From positions 1 through 64,000 of the forward strand of contig JAPOVL010000015.1 of NCBI GenBank assembly GCA_026708115.1: DNA of 64,000 nucleotides. Reading direction: 5' to 3'. The translations under genes were made by a program, and so were the position numbers. Shown here one piece after another: positions 4,555 through 26,508 of the stretch. Within the stretch, counting starts at the first letter, position 1. Each line of letters opens with the position of its first letter. The notes under the pieces were generated by a model. The model did no database searches and was not told the DNA's origin. It saw only the letters and a program-made list of their open reading frames with translations. Source of the DNA: Chloroflexota bacterium (lineage in GTDB: Bacteria > Chloroflexota > Anaerolineae > Aggregatilineales > Phototrophicaceae).

Positions 4555-4632
4555 CGGGGTATGGCGCAGTCCGGCTAGCGCGCTTGCATGGGGTGTAAGA
4601 GGTCCCCGGTTCGAATCCGGGTACCCCGACCA
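4555..4632 (+). tRNA. tRNA-Pro(GGG), CCA encoded
   Basis: Full cloverleaf: acceptor CGGGGTA/TACCCCG, anticodon stem CTTGC/GTAAG with loop ATGGGGT (anticodon GGG, G37 as usual for proline), T arm GGTTCGAATCC, discriminator A and genomic CCA at 4630-4632. Confidence 0.97.
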
Positions 4633-4641
4633 GACTATGAC

Positions 4642-4670
4642 AGGCTCACTCTAAGCGGTGAGCCTTTTTC
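4642..4670 (+). terminator. Rho-independent terminator after tRNA-Pro
   Basis: Stem AGGCTCAC / GTGAGCCT (8 bp) with an 8-nt loop, followed by TTTTC, ten bases after the tRNA CCA. Confidence 0.85.
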
Positions 4671-4687
4671 TTGGAAGGTGTACGATT

Positions 4688-5743
4688 GTGAGCGAAGTTG
4701 AAATCAAGCTAACGAGCTTGGCCACTTGCGCCGGTTGAGCTTCCAAGCTCAACCCGGGCGATCTGGCGCAAGTCTTGCAGCCATTAAGTGACAACTTTAA
4801 GTCCGAAGAATTTCCGCAGGTGCTGGTGGGCTTGTCCGAGCCAGATGATGCGGCGGTTTATCGATTGGATGGCGACCGCGCGATCATAAGCACAACGGAT
4901 TTCTTCCCACCTGTTGTAGATACTCCGTACGAATTTGGCGCGATCGCCGCGGCGAATGCCCTCAGCGATGTTTACGCGATGGGCGGCAAACCATTGCTCG
5001 CAATTAACCTGGTAGCTTATCCGGACGATCTCGGGCTCGATATCCTCCAAGAGATTCTACGGGGTGGGGCAGAAAAGGTGCGAGAGTCCGGCGCAGTCAT
5101 TGCAGGTGGGCACTCAATAAGCGACGATGAGCCAAAATACGGTTTGTCGGTGACCGGCGAGGTCTCGGTGTCGAATTTCATTCGCAAAGCCGGCGCGCGA
5201 CCGGGCGACAAACTTGTTCTGAGCAAGCCCCTTGGCACGGGTGTTATTACGACCGCGTTGAAGCGCGGGCTGGCGTCATCGGCGCATATCGAGAGCGCTG
5301 TCAACGTAATGTCTCGGCTCAATCGCAGCGCAGCAGAATGCGCGCAACTGCATGGCGTAGGTGCGATGACAGACATTACGGGATTCGGCCTGGCCGGGCA
5401 TGGGCATGAATTGGCTCGCTCTAGCGGGGTGGATCTACGCCTGAACTTCGAAGCGCTTGTTTGGCTGCCAGGGACACTTGCATATGCCAGCCGCGGCATA
5501 TTCCCAGGTGGAATGGAACGCAATCATGAATATTTTTCGCGCTGGGTGTCCGTTTGGGACGGCGCCGGCGTCAATAGCGAGGCGCTGCTATTCGATCCGC
5601 AGACATCAGGGGGATTATTGATGTCAGTGGCGGCGGAAAGCGCAGCGGACTTGCTTGAAGATTTGCGCCAGTACGGCGACGACGCGGCTATCATCGGAGA
5701 CGTAATTGACGGCACGGGCAACTTAATCGTGTACGGCGCCTAA
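4688..5743 (+). CDS. selD: Selenide, water dikinase with in-frame UGA (selenocysteine)
   Basis: SelD makes selenophosphate from selenide and ATP for selenocysteine and selenouridine synthesis. Reading from the GTG at 4688, which has a strong GGAAGGTG ribosome site 7 nt upstream, gives VSEVEIKLTSLATCAG, then TGA (4736-4738), then ASKLNPGDLAQVLQPL, continuing without interruption to TAA. The TGA falls exactly where family members have the catalytic Cys or Sec (Cys17 of E. coli, motif GAGCGCK), and the neighbouring Lys is kept (U-A-S-K). With the Sec codon the protein is 351 residues, normal for SelD. The glycine-rich ATP-binding region (EPDDAAVYRL), ITGFGLAGHGHE and DPQTSGGLL are all present. 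Automated calls would begin downstream of the TGA and lose the active site. The second Cys of the E. coli motif is Ser here. Confidence 0.93.
4724..4773 (+). promoter_or_regulatory. Nested hairpin around the selD UGA (candidate SECIS)
   Basis: An inner perfect inverted repeat, GGTTGAGCTT-CC-AAGCTCAACC (4733-4754), contains the UGA in its 5' arm. An outer perfect arm pair, ACTTGCGCC (4724-4732) and GGCGCAAGT (4765-4773), stacks directly below it with a 10-nt bulge on the 3' side. Bacterial SECIS elements lie at and just after the UGA, so a structure here is expected. The tiny apical loop differs from the E. coli fdhF type, so the functional fold may be an alternative one. Confidence 0.55.
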
Positions 5744-7876: not shown

Positions 7877-9184
7877 GTGTATGATAGCTCTATAATGCGA
7901 GAACGACGATCAACCATATCAGGCTTGTACAAGAGGCCACTTTCCGAAAGGCAGGCGATCACCCGCGACTGGGCCGATCTTACCGACAAGGACCTGCGAG
8001 CCCTGGAAGAAGGGGGCTTGGCCTTGCATGAGGCCGATCTGATGATTGAAAATGTCATCGGACGATATGCCTTGCCTTTTGGCGTCGCCACCAACTTCTT
8101 GATCAATGACACCGACTATCTGATTCCAATGGTCATTGAAGAGCCATCGGTCGTTGCCGCCTGCAGCTACGCTGCCAAGCTGTTTCGCGCGGGTGGAGGC
8201 TTCCAGGCGTCGAGCGACGAGTCGCTGATGACGGGCCAGATTCAACTGCTTGATGTCGAGGACAGAAGTCGCGTTGTCCAGACCATTGAGAGGCATAAGG
8301 CCGAGATAATCGACAAGGCGAACGAAACAGCAGGCAGCATCAAGGCACGCGGAGGCGGCGCCGTCGACCTGCAAACTCGTGTTTTCAAGAATACAAGTAT
8401 AGGGGAGATGATCGTCGTTCATCTGCTCTACGATGCGCGTGATGCCATGGGCGCAAACGCAGTGAATACAGCTCTGGAACAGGTCTCGCCATTCATCGAA
8501 AAGATCACGGGCGGCCGGGTAAATCTGCGCATTCTAAGCAATCTGTCCGACAAGAGAATGGCTTGGGCCGAAGGCAGTATTCCCGCCTCCGCCCTCGGCC
8601 ACGAATGCGCGAGCGGGCCGGAAGTCATCGACAGCATTCTGGAGGCCGCCGTGTTCGCCGAGCTGGATCCCTACCGCGCGGCCACCCACAATAAAGGCAT
8701 CATGAACGGTGTTGACGCCCTGCTGATCGCCACAGGGAATGACTGGCGGGCAGTCGAAGCGGGCGCGCATGCCTATGCGGCGCGCGCCGGCCGCTATACA
8801 AGCCTTTCGCGCTGGTGGAAAGATGAACACGGCGACTTGCGAGGGCGAATTGAATTGCCCTTGGCGGTCGGCATTGTCGGCGGGGCGACGCGCGTCCAGC
8901 GACTGGCCCAGACCGCGCTCAAGATTCTCGGCGTTCAGTCGGCTCGGCAACTGGCGGAAGTGGCCGCGGCGGTGGGACTGGCGCAAAACCTGGCGGCAAT
9001 GCGCGCGCTGGCCACCGATGGCATTCAGAGCGGGCACATGCGTATGCACGCCCGCCAACTGGCGATTGCCGCCGGCGCACCTACAGAAGATGTTGTGGCG
9101 ATAGCGCAGCAAATGAAAGCGGAAGGCAAGATTCGATTGGAGCGCGCAAGAGAATTGGTCAATCAACGAAAGTCACCATCATGA
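7877..9184 (+). CDS. mvaA: Hydroxymethylglutaryl-CoA reductase, class II
   Basis: Makes (R)-mevalonate from HMG-CoA in the mevalonate pathway (class II enzymes can also run in reverse). The 435-residue product carries the four catalytic residues of the class: Glu58 in MIENVIG, Lys273 in HNKGIMNG, Asp289 in GNDWRA and His387 in GHMRMH. The GTG at 7877 has GAGGGG 5 nt upstream; an ATG 6 codons in has no ribosome site. The stop overlaps the HMG-CoA synthase ATG by 4 bases (ATGA), so the two are translationally coupled, and the thiolase homologue follows. This operon context supports the biosynthetic direction. Confidence 0.96.
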
Positions 9185-10248
9185 ATAGGGAATCACACTG
9201 GTTAATGAAGCCGGATCGAGGCGTAGGCATCGTCGGATATGGCGCCTACATACCGCGCTATCGATTGCCTGGCCGCGAGATCTCGCGAATATGGACGAAT
9301 GGACAGGGCGCTGTGCCGGTGCAGGAAAAGGCAGTAGCGGGTATAGACGAAGATGTGATTACAATGTCGATTGAGGCGGCGCGCAACGCTATCGCTTGTG
9401 CCGGGATTGACGCTGAAGATATTCGCGCGGTTTGGGTCGGCAGCGAGAGCCACCCCTACGCGGTAAAGCCGTCAAGTACGATCGTCGCCGAAAGCATTGG
9501 CGCCTCAGCCAATATCCAGGCCGCGGACTGGGAGTTCGCCTGCAAAGCGGGAACCGAAGCCGTGCAAGCGTCGATTGGGATCGTCGGCAGCGGTATGGCG
9601 CGCTATACATTGAGTATCGGCATGGACACAGCACAAGGCAGACCCGGCGACGCCCTGGAGTTTACGGCTGCTTCCGGCGGCGCCGCTTTTATATTGGGAC
9701 CGGCCGAGGAAAGTTACGCCGTCTATCAAGGGAGTTACAGTTACGTTACGGATACGCCCGACTTCTGGCGCAGATCCGGGGAAACTTATCCCAGTCACGG
9801 GGATCGCTTCACCGGTGAACCAGCCTACTTCGCCCATACCATCTCAGCCGCAAAGGCGTTGATGGACATGATGGGCAGTTGCGCTCAAGACTATCAGCAT
9901 GCCGTTTTTCATCAGCCCAATGTCAAGTTTCCCGCGCGCGCCGCCAGGTCGCTTGGCTTCACGACAGAACAGATCGCGGCGGGCTTGCTCACGAACGAAA
10001 TCGGCAATGTTTACTCCGGCTCGTGCATGATCGGATTGACCGCGATCCTCGATCGGGCGCACCCTGGCGATCGGATTCTGATGGTTAGCTATGGCAGCGG
10101 GGCAGGATCGGACGCCTTTGACCTGTGCGTTACCGAGCGGATCGACGCGAAGCCGAAAGATGTGCCGTCCGCCCGGGACTATATACAGCGGCGCAGCGAA
10201 ATTGACTATGCGACTTACGTTCGCTATCGCGACAAACTCAAGGACTAG
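9181..10248 (+). CDS. mvaS: Hydroxymethylglutaryl-CoA synthase, archaeal type
   Basis: Condenses acetoacetyl-CoA with acetyl-CoA to HMG-CoA. The 355-residue size, the [14 protein letters not shown] start and catalytic Cys121 ([10 protein letters not shown]), His244 (FHQPN) and the GSGAGSDAF segment identify the archaeal-type enzyme. In archaea this type works in a complex with a thiolase and a DUF35 scaffold that channels acetoacetyl-CoA, and both partners are encoded just downstream here. The first ATG overlaps the HMGR stop; an internal ATG at 9205 ([11 protein letters not shown]) fits the family start equally well. Unlike its thiolase neighbour, all catalytic residues I can check are intact. 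Confidence 0.95.
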
Positions 10249-10250
10249 AC

Positions 10251-11420
10251 ATGAATGTTTCAATTATCGGCGCAGGCATGATCCCGGTGCGCGAGCACTG
10301 GTCGAAGGGCATTCGCGAGTTGGCGGCGGAAGCCGCCGAATTGGCTCTCGCGGACGCAGGAATCGCTCAAGTTGACGCCATGTACGTCGGCAACGCCTAT
10401 GGCGCGACTTTCAACCAACAGACCCAGTTGGGCAGCTTAATCGGGTCGGCGTTAGGGATGCGCGGCATCGAGGCATTCACATGTGAAGCGGGCGACGCGT
10501 CGGGCGGCGTCGCCCTGCGAACGGCCTGTCTCGCCGTGGAGTCCGGATTGCTGAGGTCGGCGCTGGTCGTCGGTGTTGAGAAGGCGACTGACATCGTCGG
10601 TCCCGCACGCGTTGGCGCGCGCAATATCAGTCTGGATGCCGACCTGGAATCGGTCAACGGCGTGACCATGACCGCCTTGGCGGCACTGCTGATGCGGCGA
10701 TACATGCATCAGAACGATCTGACTCTGTCGGACTTTGAAGGGTTTAGCATCAACGCTCACAGTAATGGCGCTGTCAATCCCTGCGCAATGTATCGCAACA
10801 AGCTGCGAGACGGGACATTTGCCAAAGCGCCGATGATTGCCGACCCGGTAAGCCTGTTTGATTGCGCGCCAGATGGAGACGGCGCCGCAGCTGTCGTACT
10901 GGTTAAGTCGGATCTTGCGGCTGATATGGTGCCGCAGCCGGTGCAAATCTGCGCCAGCGCGGTTGCGACGGATCAATTTATGTTGCAGGACCGCGACGAT
11001 CCACTTCAATTCGCAGCAATCGGAAAATCGTTTCGTGACGCGCTGGAACAAGCCCAACTTCGGCGCGAGGATATTGACCTGTTTGAATTGCATGACGCCT
11101 ATACAATTATGACGGCGCTTGCCCTTGAAGCGATGGGATATTGTCTTCCGGGCGCTGGCTGGATGCTGGCCTCAGACGGGGGATCGCATATTTCTCTGGA
11201 CGGCGATCTACCCATTAGCACTTTCGGAGGGCTAAAGAGCCGGGGTAATCCTGGCGGAGCGGCCGGCATCTACCAAGCCGTGGAATCGGCCCTGCAATTG
11301 CGCGAGTCCGCCGGCCCGAATCAAGTTCCTGGGGCGCGGCGCGCGCTCATCCAGAATGTCGCCGGCCCGGGAAGCACCGTGGTAACGCACATCTTGCAGA
11401 GACAGCCGGACGAAGCCTGA
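10251..11420 (+). CDS. Thiolase-family protein lacking the catalytic Cys
   Basis: Two bases after the HMG-CoA synthase stop, a 389-residue member of the SCPx/archaeal thiolase family begins. It aligns by eye with archaeal acetoacetyl-CoA thiolases that partner HMGS: VVGVEKATD, DCAPDGDGAAAVV, ELHDAYTI and FGGLKSRGNP. In those enzymes the nucleophile lies in EAACASG; here the segment is EAGDASGG, with Asp83 in the Cys position. The GHP histidine is also changed (RGNPGG, Asn333). His281 of HDAYT remains. It may be a non-condensing structural partner of HMGS, or a thiolase-like enzyme with other chemistry, such as the Cys-less Ltp2-type aldolases that also pair with DUF35 domains. Family membership is clear; thiolase activity is doubtful. 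Confidence 0.9.
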   Translation: MNVSIIGAGMIPVREHWSKGIRELAAEAAELALADAGIAQVDAMYVGNAYGATFNQQTQLGSLIGSALGMRGIEAFTCEAGDASGGVALRTACLAVESGLLRSALVVGVEKATDIVGPARVGARNISLDADLESVNGVTMTALAALLMRRYMHQNDLTLSDFEGFSINAHSNGAVNPCAMYRNKLRDGTFAKAPMIADPVSLFDCAPDGDGAAAVVLVKSDLAADMVPQPVQICASAVATDQFMLQDRDDPLQFAAIGKSFRDALEQAQLRREDIDLFELHDAYTIMTALALEAMGYCLPGAGWMLASDGGSHISLDGDLPISTFGGLKSRGNPGGAAGIYQAVESALQLRESAGPNQVPGARRALIQNVAGPGSTVVTHILQRQPDEA

Positions 11421-11520: not shown

Positions 11521-11679
11521 ATGCGTGTAGCCAAATACTGGCGTAACAACAAACTTCGCTATCGCTTGATCCGGGGCGCTGAAGGCGCCGGCCGAAAGCT
11601 GGAGGTCAAGCCCAAGTCCAAAGACAGACGTCATATCGCGCTGCGCCGCGAAGCAGCGCTAGAGGCAGAGACGGCCTAA
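11521..11679 (+). CDS. DUF35 N-terminal fragment without zinc cysteines
   Basis: Preceded by a strong AAGGAGTG ribosome site. The 52-residue product starts MRVAKYWRNNKLRYRLI, which matches the N-terminal helix of DUF35 (ChsH2-like) proteins that accompany thiolases and HMG-CoA synthase. In normal members a rubredoxin-like CxxC...CxxC zinc ribbon follows; here the corresponding stretch (GAEGAGRKLEVKPKSKDRR) keeps the GRKL spacing but has no cysteine. The frame ends in TAATG, overlapping the start of the OB-fold part. Either the gene has been split into two coupled subunits or it is decaying; the good ribosome site argues for expression. Confidence 0.6.
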   Translation: MRVAKYWRNNKLRYRLIRGAEGAGRKLEVKPKSKDRRHIALRREAALEAETA

Positions 11680-11987
11680 TGCTTGACCAAGAGTCACGGG
11701 ATTCGGACACGCAATACTCACGCGCTGCAGGTAGAGCCTCAGCCAAGGGCGGTACCGTATACAGTTATACGCTGCTGCAGGAACCGCCTTTGGGTTACGA
11801 ATCGCAGGCGCCGTACTACGTGGCATGGGTGGAGTTGGATGACGGCGGTTTGGTGACAGCGCAATTGACAGACATTGATGGACCCGTGCAAATTGGGGAT
11901 CGCGTAGAGATGGTGACCCGCAAACTTACGACTGACGGGCCGCAAGGCATGATTGTCTACGGTTACAAGTTTCGTCCGGCACTTTAG
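11679..11987 (+). CDS. DUF35 OB-fold domain protein (C-terminal half)
   Basis: The 102-residue product holds the DUF35 OB fold: GTVYSYTLLQEPPLGYE, APYYVAWVELDDG, TAQLTDIDGPVQIGDRVEM and the terminal IVYGYKFRP. In archaeal HMG-CoA synthase/thiolase complexes this domain clamps CoA and channels acetoacetyl-CoA. It starts at ATG 11679, overlapping the stop of the N-terminal half (TAATG), which implies coupled translation of two polypeptides instead of one. The first 25 residues are polar and family-unlike. It lies immediately downstream of the HMGR/HMGS/thiolase operon and before a terminator. Confidence 0.85.
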   Translation: MLDQESRDSDTQYSRAAGRASAKGGTVYSYTLLQEPPLGYESQAPYYVAWVELDDGGLVTAQLTDIDGPVQIGDRVEMVTRKLTTDGPQGMIVYGYKFRPAL

Positions 11988-22776: not shown

Positions 22777-23568
22777 TTACGGTCGCAGGGTGATTCTGGT
22801 GCCCGTCCGCTGATTTTGACTCAATAGATCTGTCAACACGTTTGGCCGGCGGCCGTTAGCAATGATGACCTCCAGGCTTGGATCTTCGACAACCAATGCA
22901 ACCATCTCTTCTACCTTCTGCAACATGCCGCCTGTAACATCAATGCCGGACGAGCCTCCCATGACAGATCTGATCGAATCGAAAGTCGAGGGTGTGACCG
23001 ACGGGATCACGCCTCCGTCAGCATCCAAAACGCCATCAACTTCGCCTAGCAGAATTATCCGTTTCACCGGCAGCGATTTAGCCAGATGCGCAAATATCCG
23101 CTCCGTTGAAATGATCGTGCCGCCAATTTGGCTGTCAAGCGCAACATCGCCATGCAGCAGCGGGATGATATCGGATTCCAAAGCTTGAGCGATCAAGCTC
23201 GTTTGCATTGCGACGATTTGCCCGTCGGTCGCTTCGATGAAGGACGATGGCTGAAAGCGCATCACTGGCAAGCCTTGCTCCAACAGTTCAAGCAAAACCA
23301 GGTGGCTTAGCGCCAGCGCAGCCTCGGCAACTTCGCTGAAGCCGAGCCACTGTTTCGCTGAGTCTACGCCGGCCGCTGTTTCATGGATTTCCGCCGCAAA
23401 ATGCCCAAACGAACCGCTGCCGTGCCCAATGACCAATCGCAAGCCGGGCTCGGCTTTCCATACCTTGCGTATCTGGCTCGCGATTATTCTTGTGGCCTCC
23501 TGGCGAAATGCCCGCGCTTTGTGCTTGTCGGTGATGAGTGAGCCGCCAAGCTTAATTAGAGTAGTCAT
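22777..23568 (-). CDS. Isopentenyl phosphate kinase
   Basis: Phosphorylates isopentenyl phosphate to isopentenyl diphosphate, the last step of the alternative mevalonate pathway. It is an amino-acid-kinase fold of 263 residues with LIKLGGSLIT at the start, the IPK hallmark HGSGSFGH (catalytic His56 with His49 at its start), HGDVALDS, TERIFAHLAKSL and GEVDGVL, and GIDVTGGMLQKVEEM near the end. The HGxGSFGH motif separates it from glutamate-5-kinase and aspartokinase. Its start overlaps the mevalonate kinase stop by 4 bases. Confidence 0.95.
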   Translation of the reverse strand: MTTLIKLGGSLITDKHKARAFRQEATRIIASQIRKVWKAEPGLRLVIGHGSGSFGHFAAEIHETAAGVDSAKQWLGFSEVAEAALALSHLVLLELLEQGLPVMRFQPSSFIEATDGQIVAMQTSLIAQALESDIIPLLHGDVALDSQIGGTIISTERIFAHLAKSLPVKRIILLGEVDGVLDADGGVIPSVTPSTFDSIRSVMGGSSGIDVTGGMLQKVEEMVALVVEDPSLEVIIANGRRPNVLTDLLSQNQRTGTRITLRP

Positions 23569-24530
23569 GAGTAAACCGGTCCCAAGCTCAATACAAAATC
23601 GACGACGCGCGCGGCGCCCGCCTGTCTTAAGGCTCGCCTTACTGCCGGGACGGTTGATCCGTCTACCAAGGCGATCATGTTGCCCCCCATCCCGCCGCCA
23701 GAGAGTTTGGCGCCCATAGCGCCCGCGGCAATGCTGGCATCAACAAGCTCATCCAATTCTGGGGACGATATGCCAAGCTGACGAAGCAAACGATGGTTCT
23801 CGCTCATTAAGGCGCCCAATTGCCCCAGCTTACCGCTCTCAAGCGCGCCTCGAGCATTGCTCGCGACTTGGCCGATGCTTACGAATACCTCCTCAGTCGC
23901 CGATTGTCGTTGCTCGTAGCGCTGGCGAACGCGGCTGACCGCCTCGCGTGTCATCGTGGCGCGTCCTGTATCAGCAATCACAATGTGGCAGGGACGCTTG
24001 ACGGTCAGCAGTTCAAGATCTTTGCCTCGTTGAAAGTAGACCGGGCGCTCGTATACCACGACAGTATTGTCTATTCCGCTTGGCGTACCGTGATGAATCC
24101 TCTCCATTTCGAATACGAGTTGATTCAGGTCTTCATTGGAGACGCTCCGACCAAACAGCGCCGCCAAAGCGCGTATCGCAGCGGCGGATACGGCTGCGCC
24201 GCTTCCTAAGCCTCCTGCGACTGGAATATCCGATCTGATGACGAGGTCTCCGGTCGGTTTCCTCATACCGAAATAGCTGGATGCAATCTGTAGCAACTGT
24301 TGCAGTGGTCGCAGGGAGTCATCGCTTGCAGGCGAGCCTATTGCGACGCTCTTTTCGAACTCGAGAGACCGGATGCTTAGCGGCGTATCAGACGGCTGCG
24401 CGCAAGCATAAGCGCGCAAAGATTGTATCGGCGCGGCAATCGCCGGCATGCCATATACAACGGCATGTTCTCCCAAGAGAATGATCTTCGCCGGCGCGCT
24501 TGACTTGAACGGGGGTCTATTACAAGGCAT
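23565..24530 (-). CDS. mvk: Mevalonate kinase
   Basis: GHMP kinase that makes 5-phosphomevalonate. 321 residues with the substrate motif APAKIILLGEHAVVYGMPAIA (Lys15), the ATP loop PVAGGLGSGAAVSAA and the catalytic aspartate in GTPSGIDNTV (Asp154), plus AKLSGGGMGGNMIAL near the C-terminus. It sits between the UbiA-type gene (11-base overlap) and isopentenyl phosphate kinase (4-base overlap) in one minus-strand operon. Confidence 0.96.
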   Translation of the reverse strand: MPCNRPPFKSSAPAKIILLGEHAVVYGMPAIAAPIQSLRAYACAQPSDTPLSIRSLEFEKSVAIGSPASDDSLRPLQQLLQIASSYFGMRKPTGDLVIRSDIPVAGGLGSGAAVSAAAIRALAALFGRSVSNEDLNQLVFEMERIHHGTPSGIDNTVVVYERPVYFQRGKDLELLTVKRPCHIVIADTGRATMTREAVSRVRQRYEQRQSATEEVFVSIGQVASNARGALESGKLGQLGALMSENHRLLRQLGISSPELDELVDASIAAGAMGAKLSGGGMGGNMIALVDGSTVPAVRRALRQAGAARVVDFVLSLGPVYS

Positions 24531-25401
24531 AGAGAATTATGAAATAGGCAATGCCGGCCAACATGACCGTAATCTGGATCGGTCGGTCAGCAAGTAAGAT
24601 TTCTTCAGGCGCGCTGGTAGATTCTTCCACGTGCAACAAGTAAAGGTAGCGCAACAAGCCATAAAGCACAAATGGGACCGTAGTCAGTCCCCAGTTTGCT
24701 CCGTCCTTGGTCATTGTTTCTACTTCTACCGTATACAGAATGTAGGTTATGAGCGTGGAAGTGGTGACGATCCTCAGCATGTCATCCAGCAAGGGAAGAT
24801 TGTAATGTCGGAATGTCAGGCGCGTCTTCTCGGCTTGTTCACCTAACATAACGAGTTCTTGTCGGCGCTTACCAACTACCAGGAACATCGCGAGTAAACC
24901 GGTAAAGGCATATAACCAGGGTGAAACTTCGACATCGATGACGACGCCGCCGATCATAACGCGAATGACAAAGCCCGCTGCTACGATGAGTACATCAAGC
25001 AAGGCGATATGCTTCAGACGAAGCGAATATGCTACCTGGATAATCAGATATAACGCGAGCAGAAGGAATAGCTCAAAGTCCAAGCTATGCGCGAGCCCCA
25101 AACTGACAACAACGAGTACGGCTGATGCCAACTTCGCGACCGCCGCAGACAGCTCGCCAGAAGCGATTGGGCGATGACGTTTGTTCGGATGCGCTCGGTC
25201 CTGATCCCGGTCCATCAGGTCGTTGATGATGTACACGCTGCCCGAAACAAGAACGAGCAACCCAGCGGCCGCAATTACCCGTAGCAACAGATCGAATTCC
25301 AGAAGTTTGGCGTCGAAGAGAATCGCGGGGAAAACGAAGAGAATGTTTTTTGTCCATTGCTGAGGGCGCATGGATCGGATTAGCGCGCGAAACGTACTCA
25401 A
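24520..25401 (-). CDS. UbiA-family prenyltransferase, DPPR-synthase-like
   Basis: 293 residues, about eight or nine membrane helices. The first Asp-rich motif, NDLMDRDQDRAHPNKRHRPI, is of the decaprenyl-phosphate phosphoribosyltransferase type (transfer of phosphoribose from PRPP to a polyprenyl phosphate), not of the quinone or haem type. As first gene of the operon with mevalonate kinase and isopentenyl phosphate kinase, it joins isoprenoid supply with a polyprenyl-phosphate user. The product would be a pentose donor for cell-surface glycans, fitting the polysaccharide genes further on. The exact acceptor is inference. Confidence 0.85.
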   Translation of the reverse strand: MSTFRALIRSMRPQQWTKNILFVFPAILFDAKLLEFDLLLRVIAAAGLLVLVSGSVYIINDLMDRDQDRAHPNKRHRPIASGELSAAVAKLASAVLVVVSLGLAHSLDFELFLLLALYLIIQVAYSLRLKHIALLDVLIVAAGFVIRVMIGGVVIDVEVSPWLYAFTGLLAMFLVVGKRRQELVMLGEQAEKTRLTFRHYNLPLLDDMLRIVTTSTLITYILYTVEVETMTKDGANWGLTTVPFVLYGLLRYLYLLHVEESTSAPEEILLADRPIQITVMLAGIAYFIILYAL

Positions 25402-25509
25402 CCGGGGCCTCGCTGCTTAGACAGTAGACAGGTCTATTAGTTTAGTGTTATCGTCCAGCTTTGCCAGATGCATTTGCCACAGCGACAGCTTGGTCTGCGA
25501 ATCGAAAAC

Positions 25510-26508
25510 ATGGTCACTGAATATACTGCAACGGCCAGGGCGCATTCAAATATCGCGTTTATCAAGTATTGGGGCAATAGAGATTCCGGGATTCGGCTTC
25601 CGGCGAATTCGTCGCTCAGCATGAATCTTGCAGCATTGCATTCCACCACCAGCGTAACCTGGTCCGATGCGCTGGAAGAAGATCGCTTGCTGATTAACGA
25701 CGAGCCGGCGGTGCCGGCAGCGCTTCTTAGAGTCAGCGCCCACCTCGATACTTTGCGGGCGGAACTAAGATCAACCTTACACGCCGATGTGTCTTCGCAC
25801 AACAACTTTCCCATGGGCGCTGGTATTGCATCATCCGCGTCTGCCTTTGCTGCGCTGACCCTAGCGGCAACGGCTGCGCTCGGCATGCGGCTTTCCGAAC
25901 GCGAATTGAGCCTGTTGGCGCGGCGCGGATCCGGCTCGGCAGCTCGCTCGATTCCCACGGGCTTTGTCGAATGGCACGCTGGCAGCGCAGACAAAGACTC
26001 ATATGCGGAGTCTATTGCGAGTCCAGATTACTGGCCGCTTGAAGACGTGATCGCGGTTATCAGCCGAGATCATAAACATGTTGGTTCAACAATGGGACAT
26101 GCCACGGCCAATACCAGTATCTTGCAAAGAGTGAGGGTCGAAACAGCAGCCGATCGACTCCTGAGCGCCATACATGCCATTCTAGCGCGCGACTTTGAGG
26201 CTTTGGCCCCCGTAGTAGAAGAAGATAGCAATTTGATGCACGCTGTCATGATGACCAGCAAGCCTTCGCTATTCTATTGGTTGCCGAAATCCTTGCGCGT
26301 CATGCTCGCTGTTCAAGAGTGGCGGCGTCAAGGTTTACAGGTGTGTTACACGCTGGATGCCGGTCCCAATGTTCATTGCATTTGCGGCGCCCAGGATGCA
26401 GCGGTAGTCGCGGCCCGCCTGAAAGAACTTGATCCGGATATCGAAGTCATTCGTTCAGCCGTCGGTGGGGGCGCGCAGCTATTGACCGCGAATGACCGGA
26501 CGGATTAG
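25510..26508 (+). CDS. Mevalonate (di)phosphate decarboxylase, probably phosphomevalonate type
   Basis: GHMP-family decarboxylase. The ATG at 25510 gives the family-typical start MVTEYTATARAHSNIAFIKYWG and 332 residues; the upstream in-frame ATG adds 14 unrelated residues. Arg146 (GSGSAARS) and Asp283 (TLDAGPNVH), the conserved active-site pair, are present, and Lys19 of IKYWG is kept, but the usual second Lys of KYWGKRD is Asn23. Next to isopentenyl phosphate kinase, and with no phosphomevalonate kinase seen, the likely substrate is mevalonate 5-phosphate, giving isopentenyl phosphate, as shown in Roseiflexus. Classical diphosphomevalonate decarboxylase is the alternative. It is divergent from the UbiA/mvk/IPK operon. 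Confidence 0.9.
   Translation: MVTEYTATARAHSNIAFIKYWGNRDSGIRLPANSSLSMNLAALHSTTSVTWSDALEEDRLLINDEPAVPAALLRVSAHLDTLRAELRSTLHADVSSHNNFPMGAGIASSASAFAALTLAATAALGMRLSERELSLLARRGSGSAARSIPTGFVEWHAGSADKDSYAESIASPDYWPLEDVIAVISRDHKHVGSTMGHATANTSILQRVRVETAADRLLSAIHAILARDFEALAPVVEEDSNLMHAVMMTSKPSLFYWLPKSLRVMLAVQEWRRQGLQVCYTLDAGPNVHCICGAQDAAVVAARLKELDPDIEVIRSAVGGGAQLLTANDRTD

Follow-up and report, generated by a model that had tools for sequence, protein, structure and literature searches.

What is left for a thiolase to do when it has lost its catalytic residues but is still encoded beside HMG-CoA synthase (HMGS)? The question is raised by a gene in the 64,000-nucleotide stretch of Chloroflexota DNA analysed here, referred to as the window. 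Archaeal thiolase, DUF35 and HMGS form a complex that is well known for channelling through a shared CoA site (PMC12329534, PMC6392133). In the window, HMG-CoA reductase (HMGR) and HMGS genes are followed by the thiolase-fold ORF, a 52-aa ORF and a DUF35 OB-fold ORF (Table 1). The 3' end of the HMGR gene overlaps the HMGS start, and the start of the OB-domain ORF overlaps the stop of the 52-aa ORF. The thiolase-fold ORF begins with ATG, encodes 389 aa and is intact from end to end. HMGS retains its catalytic Glu89, Cys121, His244 and Asn276. The first-pass annotation had placed a thiolase homologue inside an HMGS operon, and this is borne out, as the protein adjoins HMGS and DUF35 and is homologous over its full length. 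Further genes of the pathway lie 11-15 kb from the operon, at 22777-26508, where mevalonate kinase and isopentenyl phosphate kinase are found with a UbiA-type prenyltransferase and a decarboxylase family gene. Upstream, a selenophosphate synthetase (SelD) gene at 4595-5743 (+) directly follows a tRNA-Pro gene at 4555-4632. Its in-frame TGA is read through in the motif CAG-U-ASK, so the product is apparently a selenoprotein SelD; the ORF list begins it further downstream, at a TTG.

Table 1. Features of the HMGS operon and of the mevalonate pathway genes in the window.
Feature	Position	Strand	Profile match or remark
HMG-CoA reductase, TIGR00532 type, operon gene 1	7877..9184	+	TIGR00532 407 bits (cut-off 260); PF00368
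Archaeal-type HMG-CoA synthase	9181..10248	+	TIGR00748 513 bits (cut-off 353)
Thiolase-fold ORF, proposed pseudo-thiolase subunit	10251..11420	+	Lacks catalytic Cys (Asp82) and GHP His (Asn333)
Asp82, position of nucleophilic Cys	10494..10496	+	Codon GAC
His281, HDAF-type motif	11091..11093	+	Codon CAT; kept in most Cys-less relatives
Asn333, position of GHP His	11247..11249	+	Codon AAT
Short ORF, 52 aa, resembling the DUF35 N-terminal helix	11521..11679	+	MRVAKYWRNNKLRYRLI; no zinc-ribbon cysteines
DUF35 OB-fold domain, separate ORF	11679..11987	+	PF01796 65 bits (cut-off 27)
Isopentenyl phosphate kinase	22777..23568	-	NF040647 177 bits (cut-off 120)
Mevalonate kinase	23565..24530	-	TIGR00549 262 bits (cut-off 163)
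(Di)phosphomevalonate decarboxylase family protein	25468..26508	+	TIGR01240 254 bits (cut-off 171)

The window protein is an archaeal-type thiolase by full-length homology and by fold. Phmmer matched it to the thiolases in 7YVY (1.3e-86, 294 bits) and 6ESQ (1.9e-56). Its scores are below the NCBIfam equivalog cut-off, with 283 bits against 600 for NF053570 and 358 against 420 for the nearest subfamily, NF004720. The segment around the nucleophile reads C78-E-A-G-D82-A-S-G-G, the counterpart of the GHP motif is R-G-N333-P, and HDAY occupies positions 281-284. In the HMMER alignment with the archaeal HMGS-partner thiolases, Asp82 falls on the Cys of EAACASG in both 7YVY and 6ESQ, and Asn333 falls on the GHP His. 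The replacement of the nucleophilic Cys by Asp noted in the first-pass annotation is thus confirmed, with the residue number corrected from 83 to 82, and the GNP reading at 333 is upheld by both the codon and the alignment. In an AlphaFold model of the single chain (mean pLDDT 87.4), residue 82 lies at the N-terminal end of helix 81-98, the site of a nucleophile elbow. The best structural match of the model is 6ESQ, with a Z score of 58.8 over 382 residues, rmsd 1.6 and 34% identity. Z scores are 57-59 for 6ESQ, 6ET9 and 7YVY, 48.2 for Ltp2 and about 42 for classical thiolases.

The thiolase of Methanothermococcus thermolithotrophicus (6ESQ, 6ET9) has the same fold and the same gene partners, HMGS and DUF35. 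However, its catalytic Cys and GHP His are in place, whereas the window protein has Asp82 and Asn333, and DUF35 in the window is encoded in two parts and has no zinc ribbon. Pyrococcus furiosus PFC_04095 (7YVY) is the closest solved sequence, with 45% identity over the structural alignment. It carries EAACASGG and GHP, and the window protein carries neither.

The loss of the Cys extends far beyond the window. We sampled 34 genomes of the genus, 298 of the class and 251 of the phylum, and read about 150 distinct homologues. The Cys is absent from all 33 sampled congeners, in which the position is mostly Asp, Glu in a few and Gly in one, a consistency well outside what chance would give. The thiolase-fold gene adjoins HMGS in each of the 34 genus genomes, and other families of the order are mostly Cys-less as well. 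Many members of this Chloroflexota group read as sponge symbionts from their isolate names. Residues were compared in 148 homologues, nearly all from Chloroflexota and mostly from MAGs. The Cys is missing from 102 and present in 46. All 46 Cys-containing proteins have the GHP His, compared with four of the 102 Cys-less ones. Among the latter, the Cys position holds Asp (65), Gly (20), Glu (13), Ser (2), Gln (1) or Asn (1), and the His position holds Asn (82), Asp (10), Phe (5), His (4) or Tyr (1). These varied substitutes indicate that no replacement catalytic set is conserved across the Cys-less homologues. The trait is phylum-wide, with DUF35 decaying in parallel, and so is broader than could be seen from the window. 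Outside the class, the Chloroflexia-type genomes L212-L214 are also Cys-less, with Gly at the Cys position.

Most Cys-less genes are found in HMGR-HMGS-thiolase-DUF35 operons; in four genomes of family f8 the gene is located away from HMGS. Cys-containing homologues occupy the same type of operon in other families, or are second copies, located away from HMGS, in genomes whose operon copy is Cys-less (for example L219, L221 and L223). Two operon thiolases, L236 and L237, keep the Cys (EAACCSGA) and have GNP in place of GHP, a possible intermediate in the loss. The genome of the window encodes a second homologue (L172:3436-4635), which has GGGATG at the Cys site, YDSY and GAP, and adjoins a zinc-ribbon DUF35 protein. 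It is perhaps an Ltp2/Sal-like aldolase.

Trees of 130, 150 and 67 proteins all contain one large Cys-less clade, with SH-aLRT 99 in one and bootstrap 97 and SH-aLRT 93 in the careful tree. The clade covers Anaerolineae and Chloroflexia and is old. At least three further losses are nested inside Cys-containing groups: one in L143/L234 and one in L161/L233, with two genomes each, and one in L165. These topologies put the number of independent losses of the Cys in Chloroflexota at four or more. The 150-row tree without the two catalytic columns gave four Cys changes versus three, and the main Cys-less clade persisted. An independent-pairs test for correlated loss, run on the tree, did not reach significance because the pairs were too few.

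The gene has nevertheless remained under purifying selection, as indicated by a dN/dS of 0.137 (0.109-0.172) among six close relatives, compared with 0.085 for HMGS. Relative to HMGS, the Cys-less thiolase diverges about twice as fast as the Cys-containing one, a ratio uncorrected for shared ancestry. Binned by HMGS distance, the thiolase/HMGS distance ratio is about 1.0-1.2 with the Cys and about 1.6-2.0 without it, in pairs that are non-independent. The faster divergence could also reflect adaptation. Twenty-two positions that are near-invariant in Cys-containing proteins, including 82, 333 and their neighbours, have decayed in Cys-less proteins, and 56 have stayed invariant. The invariant set contains many glycine, Asp and His positions, and the fold is conserved. 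Near-invariance also persists at His281 and His170. In an Asp/Asn-type subclade of 74 rows, Asn333 has become near-invariant together with N183, F203, A206, W304 and F325. These changes, read from sequence and a single-chain model, could reflect a reshaped pocket, either plugged or repurposed.

HMGS itself shows no such decay. The positions of Glu89, Cys121, His244 and Asn276 are invariant in all 119 HMGS of the set, and loss of HMGS function alongside the thiolase was rejected on this ground. Residue 304 of HMGS is Tyr in 91 of 100 proteins linked to Cys-less thiolases and Phe in 18 of 19 linked to Cys-containing ones, a split that may come from shared ancestry or from adaptation. Dxr was found in none of 61 genomes, with controls that worked, so a MEP pathway making HMGS dispensable was rejected as well. 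Mevalonate kinase is present. Given the absence of Dxr, the presence of mevalonate kinase and the intact HMGS residues, HMGS must work. An alternative mevalonate pathway was shown for Roseiflexus (PMC3857490), and by sequence the mevalonate kinase, isopentenyl phosphate kinase and decarboxylase encoded in the window form a set matching it.

Acetoacetyl-CoA could be supplied by other enzymes, since a further thiolase gene is present in each of the Cys-less genomes checked. The genome of the window has three classical thiolases with Cys, NEAF and GHP intact, as seen in a residue check of this genome. A strong Thiolase_C match is found in 91 of 92 Cys-less genomes, and in the remaining one (G041) a second archaeal-type thiolase has the Cys. 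Among 34 Cys-containing genomes, six lack a strong match. The difference in strong Thiolase_C matches between the two groups gives a Fisher p of 0.0015, uncorrected for ancestry. In family f4 and part of f2, the HMGS operon has no thiolase and a Cys-containing relative is encoded elsewhere in the genome, which means that a thiolase-fold protein still accompanies HMGS.

Changes in DUF35 run alongside those in the thiolase. The zinc ribbon is present in 20 of 20 Cys-containing operons and in 20 of 74 Cys-less operons. In the genus, DUF35 is split: one ORF encodes a peptide of 49-62 aa that retains the conserved N-terminal helix, and another encodes the OB domain. The peptide gene is found in 34 of 34 genus genomes, and its codons 2-17 show pN of 0.157 against pS of 0.698. 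In other families, homologous N-termini and the OB domain are fused in one protein. The N-terminal tail of PhlB is in tight contact with both of its partners, the HMGS-like and the thiolase-like one (PMC6392133). By analogy, a role in partner contacts would explain why the DUF35 helix was kept while the ribbon was lost. Two HMGR-HMGS operons without a thiolase (L178 and L179) contain two DUF35-type N-termini, one in a free zinc-ribbon ORF and one in a complete fused DUF35.

The analysis suggested that the protein is probably a pseudo-thiolase, kept as a scaffold of HMGS or as a subunit at its CoA site, with a separate thiolase providing acetoacetyl-CoA. Its ancestor would have made acetoacetyl-CoA as the thiolase of an archaeal-type complex with DUF35 and HMGS, its gene lying in an HMGR-HMGS-thiolase-DUF35 operon. 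Loss of the nucleophilic Cys and the GHP His would have made acetyl-enzyme formation, and with it the thiolase reaction, impossible. The thiolase-fold dimer and DUF35 may still hold or complete the HMGS assembly and the shared CoA site, and retention of the protein would follow from HMGS having been built on an assembly that the three proteins share. Such a physical complex with HMGS and DUF35 is predicted by analogy with the archaeal one. Acetoacetyl-CoA made by the separate thiolase would reach HMGS from solution instead of being channelled. With channelling gone, DUF35 would have been relaxed, losing its ribbon in several lineages and being split in the genus.

Two features expected of a pseudoenzyme are found. 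The catalytic residues were lost with no conserved replacement, a feature that is less clear inside the Asp/Asn subclade, and the gene is under purifying selection. A structural partner that keeps HMGS active had been one of two alternatives in the first-pass annotation, the other being a different C-C bond reaction. The first of these fits the retained operon, the intact HMGS, the varied substitutes at the catalytic positions, the relaxation of their neighbours in a conserved fold and the presence of other thiolase genes. There are parallels for an inactive partner. Ketosynthase chain-length factors in type II polyketide synthases are Cys-less proteins of the condensing-enzyme fold that partner an active enzyme; unlike the window protein, they belong to another branch of the superfamily, act with ACP substrates and form a heterodimer with their own paralogue. 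Another case is PhlACB of Pseudomonas protegens (5M3K, 5MG5), which is made of the same three parts, HMGS-like PhlA, DUF35 PhlB and thiolase-like PhlC, and in which the half without catalytic residues is still required (PMC6392133). It is a mirror image of the system described here: PhlA is the half that has lost its Cys and Glu, and PhlC is a working thiolase, whereas in the window HMGS is intact and the thiolase residues are lost.

A counterpoint to a pseudo-thiolase comes from the Asp/Asn subclade, where the new near-invariant positions could mark a pocket with a function. A pocket formed by Asp82, His281, Asn333, Trp304 and Phe325 that catalyses a novel reaction on CoA thioesters, or gates HMGS under ligand control, is unlikely. 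Quite unlikely is the more specific proposal that Asp82, His281 and Asn333 make up a new acid-base site that works on a CoA thioester, by decarboxylation or retro-aldol cleavage for instance, and so feed or regulate HMGS. Position 82 is Asp or Glu in most of the subclade, Asn333 is fixed, His281 is kept, and W304 and F325 have become near-invariant, all of which speaks for such a site. Cys-less thiolase-fold aldolases with a DUF35 partner also exist, namely the steroid aldolases Ltp2-ChsH2 and Sal-Shy (6OK1, 9MYR; PMC12329534). However, these aldolases use YDHF or YDCY, and the window protein has HDAY instead, matches them with a Z score of only 47-48 compared with 57-59 for the archaeal thiolases, and adjoins HMGS. 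The acid is lost inside or beside the subclade while the gene is kept (Gly in L032 and L038, Gln in L112, Asn in L119), and HDA varies in the same way (QDSH in L034, NDTF in L105, ADIT in L097). In addition, Cys-less lineages with Gly or Ser occupy the same operon position, so the role shared by all of them cannot depend on Asp82. With Asp and Asn not conserved across the Cys-less relatives, the Ltp2-like C-C chemistry put forward earlier is weakened. New chemistry in the subclade is possible, but the pseudo-thiolase explanation works without it.

An improbable alternative is that the Cys-less protein binds acetyl-CoA, CoA or acetoacetyl-CoA and controls HMGS allosterically. The conserved fold and the many invariant glycine, Asp and His positions would suit a regulator, as would the CoA site that HMGS and thiolase share in the archaeal complex (PMC12329534). 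Against this, the positions around the catalytic residues are relaxed, and regulation is a proposal from sequence.

Catalysis by another nucleophile or another Cys is very improbable. Cys78, four residues before the site and common in the genus, had been named as an example of a residue that could overturn the reported loss. It was rejected as a displaced nucleophile, since Cys or Ser occurs there near the genus and other Cys-less lineages have V, I, L, A or S. The GHP His is also gone, the substitutes vary, and PDB entry 1M3K, the Zoogloea thiolase with the C89A mutation, carries the word inactive in its title. Finally, a functionless decaying leftover or a sequencing or binning artefact is extremely improbable: the divergence is faster than that of HMGS, but the gene is intact in 34 of 34 genus genomes and across families, also in closed genomes, dN/dS is 0.11-0.17, the operon position is kept, absence of the Cys from 33 congeners and closed genomes rejects a frameshift or sequencing error, and selection and conservation already refute the leftover reading for most lineages.

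Literature searches on thiolase and HMGS in Chloroflexota, or on thiolase as a pseudoenzyme, found no description of such a case, an absence that is weak evidence. Annotation pipelines may name the Cys-less proteins acetyl-CoA acetyltransferases or thiolases, and pathway reconstructions and engineering designs that depend on these names would be wrong. Closed genomes inside the Cys-less clade make the pseudo-thiolase reading testable. If instead new chemistry or gating is at work, part of the phylum would start the mevalonate pathway by a route other than thiolase-HMGS channelling. The long selection on the gene despite the loss of its catalytic residues suggests that an enzyme has turned into a structural part of the complex that starts the mevalonate (isoprenoid) pathway. 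Across Chloroflexota the operon outlasted at least four losses of catalytic residues from the thiolase half, a natural experiment on which parts of the complex HMGS needs.
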